The position numbers and the translations under genes were made by a program. The notes under the pieces are model-generated. The model did not search any database, was not told the origin of the DNA, and saw only the letters and a list, made by a program, of their open reading frames with translations. A stretch of 64,000 nt of DNA from Desulfogranum japonicum DSM 18378 (lineage in GTDB: Bacteria; Desulfobacterota; Desulfobulbia; Desulfobulbales; Desulfobulbaceae), in NCBI RefSeq assembly GCF_000429945.1, contig NZ_AUCV01000027.1:1-64000 (forward strand), written 5' to 3'. Below, piece after piece: positions 7,882-58,536 of the stretch. Numbering within the stretch: position 1 is the first letter of the stretch; each line of letters opens with the position of its first letter.

Positions 7882-10125
7882 ATGCAGCAGGGACTTCACA
7901 ATATCTCCATCGGCCAAAGCATTCCGTTCAAAATCAGCTTTGTCACCCTGCTCCTGGAATGCGCATTTTTTATTATGTATGGCTGGTACAATGTTCACAC
8001 ATTCAATCAACAACTCAACCAGGATGTGGAACGTGCCCTGAGTATTCCAGGATTACTCATGTCTCAAGGGGTTCTCGATTTCACTTTTGCGTCTAATATT
8101 TCAACTCTGGGTCAACTGCTTCAGCTTGATATCCAGAGTGTTTTCATTATCAAGCCAGATGGGACAATTCAGTACTCGAGTTCGCCTCAAAGCCTGAAAA
8201 AATCCTATCGCACCCAACTGCAGCAAAAAGAAAAAAAGCTGCCTTTTCAGACATTCAAGGGTGTTTCCTATGCACAGTACACAGATGCCAACGGCAACCA
8301 TTTTTACAGCAGCCTCGCCCCGCTGACCAGGGGCGATATTTTTTACGGCAATATCTTTATCCGTACAAAAGTCGAAGAGCTTCAGCGTAAAAAAAATCTT
8401 CATCTCACTCGCTATATCTTTGCAGCCTTCATGACCATGTTTTTCACGGTAATTGTACTGGGGATATTTATATATGAGCTGATGATTCCACGGATGGAAC
8501 AAGCCGTAGAGACCCTTTCCAAAATCAGCAAGCACCGTTTTAACGTACGCCCCATCACTCCGGGAGTAAGGGATCAACTGGGTGTATTCCTGGATCAGAT
8601 CAATACGATTCTCTCTGCTGTTGCAGAGCATAATCACGACCTGCGCAACCTGAACATAGCCGGTGAACAGCTGGCAGATGCAGAAAACAAACAACAGCTC
8701 TACACCACAGCCACCAATATTATTTGCCGTTTTTTTAATGTCCAGCAGAGTGAAACCGACCAGCGTATCGAAAGCCAGGCCCTGAATCTCTTCTCCGATG
8801 GCGACGACATGATTGCCTTGACGGCCAGCGATGACAAGACCCGCCTCTTTCTATCCATGCCTATCCCAGAAGAACCGAATGAATTTCTGTGGATTAAATT
8901 CTCAAGAGAAGATGGTAAGCCCATTGCCAAAGCATCCAACAAACTCTACATAGAACACCTCTCCCGTATTTTGAAAAGTGCGATCCATCGTATTAATTCT
9001 TTTGATGACATTGCCCGGGCAGAGGAACGATACAGGGAACTGTTCAGCTCTGCAGCTGAAGGCATTTTCCGCACTACGACCGAAGGCCGTTTTGAAGCGG
9101 TTAATCCTGCGCTGGCTTCCATGACCGGATACGACTCGCCAGAGGAGATGATCACCAGCATCAAAGATATAAGCACCCAATATTATGCAGACAGCAAAGA
9201 TCGCTCCAGGATTTTCAACGAAATATTACAGTACGGAAAAATTGTAGACAGGGAAACATTTCTGCGTCGTAAGGATGGCACCATTTTCCCTGCCGCACTC
9301 TCAAGCCATTATGTTACCAATGAACAGGGAGGCATCATTGCCCTTGAGGGCAGAGTTATTAACATCGAAGAGCGAAAACTCCGCGAACGTGAAGAACAAA
9401 ACCGAAAGGCTGCGGAAGCTGTCAGCCGGGTGCAGCTTGAACTGGTATCGAAACTGGAAGACAATGAACGGATATTGCAGCGTTCTTTGAAAGAAAAGGA
9501 AATTCTTTTACGGGAAATATACCATCGCACGAAAAACAACATGCTGGTTATTATATCCATGCTCAAGCTGCAGATGCGCAAAGTTTCCGACCCTCACATG
9601 CATACTATCTTTCAAGAAACGGAAAACCGAATCCGTGCAATGTCTCTTGTTCATGAAAAGCTGTATCAGTCAGACAGTCTTGTGGAAATCGACCTGGCAA
9701 ATTATCTGGTGGAGATGGTCACAGCCCTGGTTGCCACTATGGTTGTGGATGATCGTATAACAGTGGAAACGGAAACTGTTCCTGTTCCCATATCCATTGA
9801 TCATGCTGTTCCTCTTGGCCTTGCGGTTAATGAAATCGTCACGAATTCGCTTAAACATGCTTTTCCCAATGACAGGCAAGGGGTGATCAGTCTCTACCTT
9901 TGCGTAACAGAGGACAATATGATAGAGTTGCATATCAAAGATTCGGGGGTAGGAGTTCCTGCTCATTTTATTCTTGAAAAAAGCACCTCTTTTGGACTGC
10001 AGATGGCGCAAAACCTGATAATCAAACAGTTGGGCGGCTCGATGAGTGTGCAAACCAACCAAGGCACAGAAATTACCATCTGCTTTGTTGAACCTGAGAG
10101 GCGCCAGCGCATCAACCTGCAATGA
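7882..10125 (+). CDS. membrane sensor histidine kinase (HisKA_2 type) with PAS domain
   Basis: The protein is 747 residues. Membrane segments at about 17-35 and 178-201 enclose a periplasmic sensor domain of about 140 residues. A linker region (about 205-370) is followed by a PAS domain (about 370-490, with FRTTTEGRFEAVNPALASMT) and a coiled stretch. The HisKA_2 box LREIYHRTKNNMLVI has the likely phospho-histidine H548. A GHKL ATPase domain follows, with NEIVTNSLKHAF, DSGVGVP and SFGLQMA. HisKA_2 kinases often pair with stand-alone receivers, as here, where the stop overlaps the next start. The signal sensed is unknown. Confidence 0.88.
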   Translation: MQQGLHNISIGQSIPFKISFVTLLLECAFFIMYGWYNVHTFNQQLNQDVERALSIPGLLMSQGVLDFTFASNISTLGQLLQLDIQSVFIIKPDGTIQYSSSPQSLKKSYRTQLQQKEKKLPFQTFKGVSYAQYTDANGNHFYSSLAPLTRGDIFYGNIFIRTKVEELQRKKNLHLTRYIFAAFMTMFFTVIVLGIFIYELMIPRMEQAVETLSKISKHRFNVRPITPGVRDQLGVFLDQINTILSAVAEHNHDLRNLNIAGEQLADAENKQQLYTTATNIICRFFNVQQSETDQRIESQALNLFSDGDDMIALTASDDKTRLFLSMPIPEEPNEFLWIKFSREDGKPIAKASNKLYIEHLSRILKSAIHRINSFDDIARAEERYRELFSSAAEGIFRTTTEGRFEAVNPALASMTGYDSPEEMITSIKDISTQYYADSKDRSRIFNEILQYGKIVDRETFLRRKDGTIFPAALSSHYVTNEQGGIIALEGRVINIEERKLREREEQNRKAAEAVSRVQLELVSKLEDNERILQRSLKEKEILLREIYHRTKNNMLVIISMLKLQMRKVSDPHMHTIFQETENRIRAMSLVHEKLYQSDSLVEIDLANYLVEMVTALVATMVVDDRITVETETVPVPISIDHAVPLGLAVNEIVTNSLKHAFPNDRQGVISLYLCVTEDNMIELHIKDSGVGVPAHFILEKSTSFGLQMAQNLIIKQLGGSMSVQTNQGTEITICFVEPERRQRINLQ

Positions 10126-54998: not shown

Positions 54999-55148
54999 GG
55001 GTCGCGGAAAATAATAAATATCCAAAAATTGCGCAGGATATCGGTAACTGGTCACGGGAGGGGGGGGGGGGGGGGGGGGTAACAACACTGATATTTCAAT
55101 TAGTTCTGAGAGCCAAGCAAGATTGGATAATGTATTTTTCCATGATCC
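54999..55148. mobile_element. MITE-like element, family 1, with G20 tract
   Basis: This is a 150-bp element. The left end GGGTCGCGGAAAATAATAAA is identical to the copy at 19986 but for one base, and the right end is ATTGGATAATGTATTTTTCC followed by ATGATCC. Its interior carries the GTAACTGGTCAC repeat and a run of 20 G. TTA flanks it on both sides, perhaps a duplicated target. Confidence 0.72.
55060..55079 (+). repeat. homopolymer of 20 G
   Basis: Twenty uninterrupted G lie inside the MITE at the point where the related copies have GGGG. It could form a quadruplex, be slippage-prone, or be partly an assembly artefact. Confidence 0.9.
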
Positions 55149-55406: not shown

Positions 55407-55483
55407 TGGCGCGCCAGGGAGGATTCGAACCCCCGGCCCACGGCTTAGAAGGCCGTTGCTCTATCCGACTGAGCTACTGGCGC
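55407..55483 (-). tRNA. tRNA-Arg (TCT)
   Basis: The 77 nt include an encoded CCA. Acceptor GCGCCAG pairs with CTGGCGC; the anticodon loop CTTCTAA lies in the stem ACGGC/GCCGT; T-arm GGTTCGAATCC is present. It sits just downstream of the CysK-CysS gene's 3' end, on the same strand. Confidence 0.97.
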
Positions 55484-55579: not shown

Positions 55580-57895
55580 TTATTCCACTGTTTTTTCCCA
55601 GATCGTTCCATTGACAGTGTCAGAGACAGTTACCCCTTGCCGCAACAACTCCTCACGCACAGAATCAGCAGCAGTCCAGTCTTTCAGTTGCCTGGCTCGC
55701 TCACGCTGCCGTATTAACTTATCAATTTCAGGAGTTAACGGACATTCCTGCAATTGAAGGATCCCCAGAGTCTGGTTGATGGTTCGCAAAATTTCCAGGG
55801 TGTCATTCTTCTGCTCACAGTCCAGTTGTTTACTCTGTAGAACTGGATTCATTTTCTTAATAAAATAAAAAAGCGCCCCCAATGCTCCGGAAATATTCAA
55901 ATCATCGTCCATGGCCTTCTCGAATTGCTGCTCTAGCTGCTCAAGATATATCGTCACCTCCGGATGAGGCATACCAACCTGTAAACAAAGCAGTTTTCTG
56001 GTAAAAGCGTCGAGTCTCTTAAGGGCAGTAGCGGCACTTTCCAGTCGCCTAAAAGAAAAATGGAAAGGTTTACGATAGTGAACGGTGAAAAACATAAACC
56101 GTAACACCCTTGCGGTGAACCCTTGTGCGAGAATTTCTTTAAGCGTAACAATGTTGTCAGCCTCCTGCGACATCTTTTTGCCGTCGCGCAGAACCAGCCC
56201 TGAATGAACCCAGTAGTTTGCCAGACTTTTACCGGTCAACGATTCTGCAATGGCTATCTCATTTTCATGATGGGGAAATATTAAATCCTGACTCGCCGTG
56301 TGCAAATCTATTGTTTCACCAAGATACCTGGTAGACATGGCTGAACACTCAATATGCCAGCCGGGTCGAACATTGCCCCAGTCTGTCTCAAAAAAGATAC
56401 CCTTTTTCAACTCCGCCAGGGTAGAACGCTTAAGTAGGGTAAAGTCTCTGGGATTGTCCTTTTCGTAATTATCCAGATCAACGGTCCGCCCTACCCTGAT
56501 TTTACTCAAATCTACTCGGCTGAGCCTGCCGTACTGTTTAAACTTGGAAATATCAAAATAAATGGAGCCGTGTTTCTCATAGGCATATCCGCGATGAATA
56601 AGATCATGGGCTATCTCAATCATATCACCGACATGCTCAGACGCCAAAGGATACCCCGAAGCCGGTAACACCGCCAACATTTCAGCAGCCTGATGAAATT
56701 CCTGAATGAATCGACCGGTGAAGTCTTTAAGGTCAAGACCAGCCTGCTCAGCTCCGGCAATGGTGTTATCATCCAGATCAGTAAAGTTCATAAAAGACTC
56801 TACGGTATACCCTCTGAAACGGAGGTAACGCACAATTAAATCAGAGACGACAAGTCGTCGCAAATGCGCAACGTTAGGTGATTCGTAAGCTGTTGGACCA
56901 CAGGAATAAAGGGTTACCCGCTTTTTGTTGACAGGCTCAAAAACTTCTTTTTTCCGACTCATGGTGTTGTAGAAACGAAGTTTGGAAGCCTCCTTGGCTG
57001 TTTTTTGCTCCTTAACAAAAAGTGGTGTACTCAAATAGCGCTCACCGCCATCAGGAAGAATCACCACCACAACACCTTGTTTAATCTGTTTCGCTCTTTC
57101 AATGGCTGCAAAGGCAGCCGCTCCGCCACTCATTCCTGCAAAAACCGCTTCCTCAGCAGCCAGTCTGCGAACGGTTTCAAAGGCATCGTCGTCTGCCACA
57201 TTGACTATTTCGTAAGGTAAGGTCTTATCAAAAATACCGGGACGATAAGACTCCTTCATATTCTTCAAACCCTGAATTTTATGACCCAGATATGGCTCAA
57301 TGGCTATAACCCTGACTTCTGGATGATGATCTCGATACCATTTTGACAACCCCATAGCAGTACCGGAAGTCCCCAGGGTAGCAATAATATCCGTCACCTT
57401 CCCATTGGTTTGCTCCCAAATCTCCGGAGCAGTTCCGTTGTAGTGGGCCATCCAGTTAGCCGGATTATTATATTGATCTGCAAGAAAGTAGAGATCTGGA
57501 AATTCCCGAGCCAGAGAATAAGCCTTTTCTATAGCTCCATCAGTTGCCCGACTGGCTGGCGTAAGGATAATCTCCGCACCATAGGCCTGCATGATAAGGC
57601 GGCGTTCAATAGAGGCGGATTCAGGCATTATCATTTGGCATCTGAACTGTTTCGCAGCACAAACCATGGCCATACCTATACCGGTGTTCCCGCTGGTCGC
57701 TTCCAGAAGGATCTTCTCCCTGGTCATTTCTCCGCTTCTTTCGGCAGCTTCCACCAACGACAGGGCAACCCGATCTTTAATCGATCCCCCTGGATTCTTT
57801 GACTCAAGCTTACCAAGAAGCGTAACACCGGGCTCAGGGTTTATGCGGTGCAACTCAACCAGAGGGGTATTGCCAATAAGTTCAGTAATCTTCAT
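55580..57895 (-). CDS. cysteine synthase fused to a diverged cysteinyl-tRNA synthetase
   Basis: The protein is 771 residues. Residues 1-300 are an O-acetylserine sulfhydrylase: PLP lysine in NPGGSIKDR, SGNTGIGM and GTSGTAMG. Residues about 320-771 match full-length CysS including the C-terminal domain. The zinc ligands that bind cysteine are kept (SCGPT, WHIECSAM, HHENE). The catalytic signatures are not: HIGH reads NVAH, KMSKS reads KMSQE, and HGGGSD reads HTASQD. The KIIK segment is also lost (DNTIAGAE). The CysS half may therefore bind cysteine without charging tRNA. No frameshift separates the halves. Confidence 0.92.
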   Translation of the reverse strand: MKITELIGNTPLVELHRINPEPGVTLLGKLESKNPGGSIKDRVALSLVEAAERSGEMTREKILLEATSGNTGIGMAMVCAAKQFRCQMIMPESASIERRLIMQAYGAEIILTPASRATDGAIEKAYSLAREFPDLYFLADQYNNPANWMAHYNGTAPEIWEQTNGKVTDIIATLGTSGTAMGLSKWYRDHHPEVRVIAIEPYLGHKIQGLKNMKESYRPGIFDKTLPYEIVNVADDDAFETVRRLAAEEAVFAGMSGGAAAFAAIERAKQIKQGVVVVILPDGGERYLSTPLFVKEQKTAKEASKLRFYNTMSRKKEVFEPVNKKRVTLYSCGPTAYESPNVAHLRRLVVSDLIVRYLRFRGYTVESFMNFTDLDDNTIAGAEQAGLDLKDFTGRFIQEFHQAAEMLAVLPASGYPLASEHVGDMIEIAHDLIHRGYAYEKHGSIYFDISKFKQYGRLSRVDLSKIRVGRTVDLDNYEKDNPRDFTLLKRSTLAELKKGIFFETDWGNVRPGWHIECSAMSTRYLGETIDLHTASQDLIFPHHENEIAIAESLTGKSLANYWVHSGLVLRDGKKMSQEADNIVTLKEILAQGFTARVLRFMFFTVHYRKPFHFSFRRLESAATALKRLDAFTRKLLCLQVGMPHPEVTIYLEQLEQQFEKAMDDDLNISGALGALFYFIKKMNPVLQSKQLDCEQKNDTLEILRTINQTLGILQLQECPLTPEIDKLIRQRERARQLKDWTAADSVREELLRQGVTVSDTVNGTIWEKTVE

Positions 57896-58086: not shown

Positions 58087-58536
58087 TCATTTGCTGCTAT
58101 TCTGCCCGAGTTGCTCATGGGCTCTCCAGAGGTTATACAGAGCCTCCTGGCAATCTCCATCGCTTATACCCTGGATAAGTCCTTTTATCTCCACTTCAGC
58201 TTCCGCATCCACAGAACGTGGCAGCGGAGTTTTTTTCACCTTTTTTTCAGGTAAATCTGAAGGGTACAAAGCAAAATGGATATCTTCCACATTAGCATCA
58301 GGTAGCGTGCGATGAATACCCTGCAAAAGATCAGGTTTGATATACTGCAGATGCTGCATCCAAGAGGAATTTTCAACATATATCCAGAGTACCTGCTGAC
58401 GAAAAAACGCAGGCATGGTAACCTGAGAAAAATTCTTTCCTACAATGGCATCCCACTTCCGAAAAAGATGAAACAGAGTCCATTGACGCTGCCACTCATT
58501 TTTGCTGTAAACTTTTTCTAGGTCTTTATCAAACAT
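58087..58536 (-). CDS. DUF721/DciA-family protein
   Basis: The protein is 149 residues. The N-terminal half holds the family's core: WDAIVGKNFSQVTMPAFF, then VLWIYVENSSWMQHLQYIKPDLL and a C-terminal charged segment. DciA proteins load or stabilise replicative helicase DnaB in bacteria lacking DnaC. The gene lies upstream of the fusion on the same strand, 191 bp away. The C-terminal 50 residues are less typical. Confidence 0.75.
   Translation of the reverse strand: MFDKDLEKVYSKNEWQRQWTLFHLFRKWDAIVGKNFSQVTMPAFFRQQVLWIYVENSSWMQHLQYIKPDLLQGIHRTLPDANVEDIHFALYPSDLPEKKVKKTPLPRSVDAEAEVEIKGLIQGISDGDCQEALYNLWRAHEQLGQNSSK

Follow-up and report, generated by a model that had tools for sequence, protein, structure and literature searches.

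What is the role of a protein in which a cysteine synthase is followed, in the same chain, by a module resembling cysteinyl-tRNA synthetase (CysRS)? Such a fusion is encoded in the window, the stretch of 64,000 nucleotides of Desulfogranum japonicum DSM 18378 that we analysed, at 55580..57895 on the minus strand, as one open reading frame of 771 aa with an ATG start; all positions given below for its parts are on the same strand. The PLP cysteine synthase half is CysM-like (aa 3-295, 57011..57889) and is joined by a linker (aa 296-305, 56981..57010) to the CysRS-like catalytic domain (aa 306-622, 56030..56980), followed by a DALR_2 domain (aa 657-714, 55754..55927) and an anticodon-binding CysS_C domain (aa 720-768, 55592..55738). 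In the fusion family, 8-16 residues lie between the positions of L292 and L306. Pfam matches were obtained for PALP (3-282), tRNA-synt_1e (319-621, 300 bits), DALR_2 (657-714) and CysS_C (720-760), and the second half therefore has the layout of a full-length CysRS, with catalytic, DALR_2 and CysS_C domains all present. The single frame of 771 codons and these domains bear out the first-pass annotation, made from the sequence of this locus, which had proposed an enzyme and a CysRS-like module in one chain.

The same single full-length frame occurs in relatives and across the phylum, so the fusion is neither a chance event nor an assembly join. We found it complete in 28 of the 37 nearest-relative genomes (its own included; the others at 60-82% identity), and four others have copies that are truncated, frameshifted or at a contig end. 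Among 395 sampled Desulfobacterota genomes, 156 carry it (143 of the 328 good ones), and the family extends over Desulfobulbaceae, Desulfobacteraceae/Desulfobacterales and Thermodesulfatator. The fusion is thus common in Desulfobacterota, which answers a question of frequency that had been left open. No full-length fusion was detected outside Desulfobacterota-type genomes in a contig scan that reaches close relatives only, and no plasmid record covered 80% of the protein. When 48 fusion CysRS halves and 30 canonical CysRS were placed on one tree, a single branch (SH-aLRT 100) separated them, and the fusion halves form one clade. Purifying selection acts on both parts of the protein: between copies that are 84-98% identical, dN/dS is 0.01-0.13 for the CysRS catalytic part and 0.03-0.15 for the PLP half, with noisier values for the small C-terminal parts. 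Because these ratios are low in both halves, the fusion is no relic in decay. A few copies deserve separate mention. One order-level relative (G029) has two full-length copies (C76, C204), each 63% identical to the window protein. In another genome (G012, locus L052), which consists of a single contig and has no CysE match, the gene carries a frameshift near residue 592, which is either genuine or an artefact of assembly. The apparent truncation in G100 was set aside because the contig ends there.

The PLP half has the residues expected of CysK and CysM, namely the Schiff-base lysine (K40), the SGNTG and GTxGT loops and the serine facing the pyridine nitrogen (S256); Lys40, SGNTG (68-72), GTSGT (175-179) and Ser256 are invariant in all 93 full-length fusions. 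A free amino acid is bound by these residues. With the joint CysK/CysM profile TIGR01136 (cut-off 344.15 bits), the protein scores 343.7 by hmmscan and 346.9 in the genome search. The label "CysK" given in the first-pass annotation holds for a cysteine synthase but not for the type, since the CysM profile TIGR01138 scores higher (338 bits) than the CysK profile TIGR01139 (304 bits). The likeness to the CysM proteins of Mycobacterium tuberculosis and Escherichia coli covers the PLP fold, the catalytic residues, a short loop of CysM type (GLKNMKE) and a basic residue within it: Lys211 (57263..57265) aligns with Arg220 of M. tuberculosis CysM (ALRNMDE), a position that we take to matter for O-phosphoserine. 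It is a lysine in 93/93 fusions, and CysK has a gap there. Unlike these proteins, the PLP half is joined to a CysRS-like half, and its 338 bits fall below the CysM equivalog cut-off of 394.

CysE is the usual feedback point, and where it is missing there is no CysE feedback by cysteine. Taking the lack of a TIGR01172 match as absence of CysE, we found none in 76 of the 156 fusion genomes, against 52 of the 239 that do not carry the fusion (Fisher p = 3e-8, for genomes that are related and not independent). In 40 fusion genomes that were checked, the fusion is the only CysK/M in 17 of the 18 without CysE (E <= 1e-25 as the limit for a match), and all 22 with CysE also carry a second CysK/M. D. 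japonicum itself has a cysK adjoining cysE (C17). Since CysE is present in 80/156 fusion genomes, together with another CysK in those checked, its absence is not the sole reason to keep the fusion. M. tuberculosis CysM is described as using O-phosphoserine by Agren et al. (2008), as cited in PMC9855970. O-phosphoserine is probably the substrate of the fusion as well, because genomes without CysE would lack the ordinary source of O-acetylserine and because Lys211 occupies the Arg220 position; a serine acetyltransferase missed by TIGR01172 could instead provide O-acetylserine. We also considered whether the PLP half might act on tRNA-bound phosphoserine, like SepCysS; this is disfavoured because the SGNTG loop, which holds a free carboxylate, is invariant.

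In the CysRS-like half we placed the motifs by alignment to E. coli CysRS (1li5), as the first-pass annotation had advised, and counted them over the 93 full-length fusions. Its readings of altered charging motifs were upheld. The HIGH position is N341-V-A-H344 (56864..56875), the HGGG position H532-T-A-S535 (56291..56302) and the KMSKS position K574-M-S-Q-E578 (56162..56176). In the family, a HIGH-like signature is found in 6/93, KMS[KR]S in 17/93, both together in 5/93, and HGG in none. Just after the HIGH region, Arg347 (56855..56857) is arginine in every fusion and replaces the serine of the eight canonical sequences compared. The earlier reader had also suggested looking for a second, canonical cysS, and had counted the lack of one, together with measured tRNA charging, against its own interpretation. 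The D. japonicum genome (G000, 5.8 Mb, 100% complete) contains such a gene at G000:C6:168139, with CHIGHA, HGGGKD and EKMSKS. By CysRS profile search, nearly every fusion genome has a second cysS; only one match was obtained in G041, G112, G248 and G384, three of which are 62-82% complete. Given the degraded ATP-site motifs throughout the family and the presence of a canonical cysS, the synthetase half has very probably lost the ability to charge tRNA, as judged from these motifs. Two other CysRS genes were noted in passing. In G075 (L140), a frameshift divides the canonical CysS into two pieces that lack the KMSKS segment between them, possibly through an assembly error, and G007 has a third, shorter CysRS-like match (C78:36505-37689, 29% identity, a frame of 428 aa), possibly a paralogue of the CysRS* type.

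The loss of the KIIK motif had been put forward as a further sign. In CysRS-type persulfide synthases (CPERS), the lysines of KIIK and KMSK define the motif (PMC10655014). The fusion reads N377-T-I-A380 and KMSQ at these positions, so that K574 is kept and three of the four lysines are gone. The loss is real, but we rejected it as a special sign because KIIA also stands in the canonical CysS of D. japonicum, and the absence of the second lysine is therefore not diagnostic.

It is highly unlikely, in our judgement, that the module has kept ligase activity, whether by charging tRNACys weakly in near-canonical members or by joining cysteine to another acceptor as MshC does. Four fusions (L061-L063, L066) do combine HLGN, KMSRS and CCHE, and could retain some charging according to these motifs, and the window protein scores 408 bits with the cysteine--tRNA ligase equivalog TIGR00435, above the cut-off of 340. 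Set against this are the absence of HGG and the presence of Arg347 in 93/93, the NVAH and KMSQE of the window protein itself, and the lack of a conserved biosynthetic neighbourhood that would supply an acceptor. MshC, the mycothiol cysteine ligase, is likewise a CysRS-derived paralogue outside translation, but it is an ATP-dependent ligase with chains of about 414 aa that stop before the anticodon domain; its profile TIGR03447 gives 204 bits against a cut-off of 485 and covers only aa 301-686 of the fusion. A 2022 review (PMC9437257) names MshC and CysRS* as the CysRS paralogues that have taken on other roles; neither is a cysteine synthase fusion. CysRS* belongs to the SelC*/SelB* system of Desulfobacterales and is thus a CysRS paralogue of the same phylum; unlike the fusion, it charges tRNA and has no anticodon domain (PMC9437257). 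Because the fusion scores above the TIGR00435 cut-off, automatic annotation may credit it with tRNA charging, which it probably does not perform.

The zinc site was rightly reported as retained in the window protein. All four ligands are present: Cys332 (56900..56902) and Cys517 (56345..56347), aligned with E. coli C28 and C209, His542 (56270..56272; E. coli H234) and Glu546 (56258..56260; E. coli E238). From this site the first-pass annotation had concluded that the module binds cysteine and is not a working synthetase. The second part agrees with the very probable loss of charging. The first would make the module a sensor in which zinc holds free cysteine so as to regulate the synthase by feedback, much as in HisZ, with the amino acid as ligand. 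The tetrad CCHE is indeed complete in the window protein and 65/93 fusions, and W513 (E. coli W205) is kept in 92/93. Against zinc-based cysteine binding as the general explanation, the tetrad is broken in 28/93, having changed at least five times on the tree (KMS at least seven times), while all 93 retain the fold and the residues that read the anticodon. His542 is kept in 93/93 and Glu546 in 66/93; one or both cysteines are missing in 16 members that retain the rest of the module (L092, L093, L097-L103, L114, L115, L118-L122), several of them lacking both. With the tetrad intact in only 65/93, the family does not have a zinc-held cysteine site as its common function, and we regard a cysteine sensor of this kind as quite unlikely.

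Of special interest is the anticodon domain, which the earlier reading had passed over and which is the strongest positive clue to function. In the 1u0b complex, E. coli CysRS contacts G34 of tRNACys by Arg423, Arg427, Trp432 and Asp436 (PMC12684709). By alignment, these correspond to R731, R735, W740 and D744 of the fusion. The set reads RR[WFY]D in 91/93 fusions and RK[WF]D in the other two: position 731 is arginine and 744 aspartate in all 93, 735 is arginine in 91 and lysine in two, and 740 is always aromatic. R747 and D759 (E. coli R439 and D451) are also kept in 93/93. The G34-reading residues stay even in fusions that have lost the zinc ligands and KMSKS. Read from these alignments, our main result is that the family has abandoned the charging motifs and can dispense with the zinc site, and that it keeps the residues that read the tRNA. 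This pattern of loss and retention shifts the explanation from a cysteine-binding module to a tRNA-linked one. The conserved arginines and aspartates of this small domain could be structural, and the whole module might be a synthetase-derived partner that binds no ligand and serves dimerisation or stability, which would suit the free variation of catalytic motifs between families. We give such a partner little credence, since the residues kept without exception include the anticodon readers and not core positions alone.

An AlphaFold2 model built with eight sequences (mean pLDDT 73, pTM 0.55) gives no firm arrangement of one half against the other. Searched against the PDB with Foldseek, it is closest to the CysRS-tRNACys complex, chain 1u0b_B (TM 0.81 on the target). 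On the CysRS side, VIA-align reaches Z 41.7 over residues 305-769, anticodon domain included, and about 31 for the PLP half against CysM and CysK. In the predicted structure, the CysRS fold is intact. The fusion thus shares with CysRS (TIGR00435; E. coli 1li5 and 1u0b) the full fold with DALR and anticodon domains, the zinc ligands in the case of the window protein, and the G34 readers; it differs in HIGH, HGGG and KMSKS, in its place behind a cysteine synthase, and in forming a clade apart from the canonical CysRS of the same genomes.

We tentatively favour, at somewhat less than even confidence, a CysM-type synthase fused to a non-activating, tRNACys-binding CysRS paralogue that would act as a control domain and tie cysteine synthesis to tRNACys. 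The PLP half would make cysteine, probably from O-phosphoserine and sulfide, and the CysRS paralogue would no longer activate cysteine; its anticodon domain would still bind tRNACys. The module could then sense tRNACys, the uncharged form signalling a demand for cysteine, and control the synthase, and in genomes without CysE the fused sensor might supply the missing feedback. We infer the O-phosphoserine substrate, the physical binding of tRNA and the allosteric control alike from the sequences. The more specific version, in which the dead synthetase half, on binding uncharged tRNACys, turns cysteine synthesis on, so that a sensor of translational demand at the level of the enzyme replaces CysE feedback, is plausible but rather doubtful. 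The conservation pattern suggests that many sulfate-reducing bacteria may tie cysteine production directly to tRNACys.

A tRNA-linked module need not be allosteric. The CysRS-like half could recruit tRNACys, and through it the canonical CysRS or EF-Tu, so that new cysteine is delivered at the site of charging, an arrangement that in principle resembles the tRNA-dependent cysteine system of archaea. Kept tRNA-reading residues, lost charging motifs and covalently fused halves would be expected here too. Such a hand-off should be unnecessary in sulfide-rich cells, with their pool of free cysteine; moreover, we saw no sign of contact with the canonical CysRS, and translation genes are not consistently among the neighbours. 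We therefore consider it unlikely, though less so than a zinc-based cysteine sensor.

The control of cysteine synthesis by a tRNACys-binding paralogue would follow a principle also seen in Gcn2, which has a HisRS-like domain. Closer is HisZ, a HisRS paralogue controlling HisG (PMC9437257, PMC9734150): in both cases a synthetase paralogue that does not charge, very probably so in the fusion, is physically attached to an enzyme that produces the amino acid in question. HisZ, however, is a separate class II subunit that senses histidine, and the fusion has a covalent class I module that keeps its anticodon domain. What is new here is therefore not a synthetase paralogue linked to the pathway for its own amino acid, a known principle, but its unusual form as a covalent fusion with retained anticodon-reading residues. 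The first-pass annotation knew of no characterised example, and we likewise found no published work on a cysteine synthase-CysRS fusion in the open literature, most subscription papers lying beyond the search. If our reading is correct, a large share of Desulfobacterota would control, or at least tether, a cysteine synthase via the tRNA that consumes cysteine. The fusion would stand beside HisZ-HisG as a covalently joined example from class I, and it would account for how cysteine synthesis could be controlled in genomes that lack CysE, the usual feedback point.

The gene surroundings were set aside as a functional clue: the neighbours are housekeeping genes that differ between orders, and thus offer no pathway partner. 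Upstream lies a DciA/DUF721 protein (58087..58536, minus strand), which occupies this position in several Desulfobulbales only and is probably outside the function of the fusion. In Thermodesulfatator-like genomes the neighbour is endonuclease III, and in Desulfobacterales we found thymidylate kinase, an HD-domain protein, an lptD-like gene and a protein without assignment. One protein of about 315-356 aa without Pfam match (cluster c1) adjoins the fusion in L014 and nine other loci, from several Desulfobacterales and others. We looked for a T-box or other leader RNA upstream of the fusion in ten relatives and obtained no Rfam match at gathering scores, and none was convincing in the window. 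Downstream is a tRNA-Arg(TCT) gene (55407..55483, minus strand), a neighbour only, and beyond both genes a run of 20 G on the plus strand (55060-55079) lies in an intergenic region. At the place where the window and L013 have this tRNA-Arg(TCT) intact, just downstream of the fusion, L012 has an Rfam match to a group I intron (8447-8656). Because ARAGORN found no tRNA in L012 and the intron stands at the tRNA-Arg place, the tRNA-Arg of this locus is probably interrupted by the intron.
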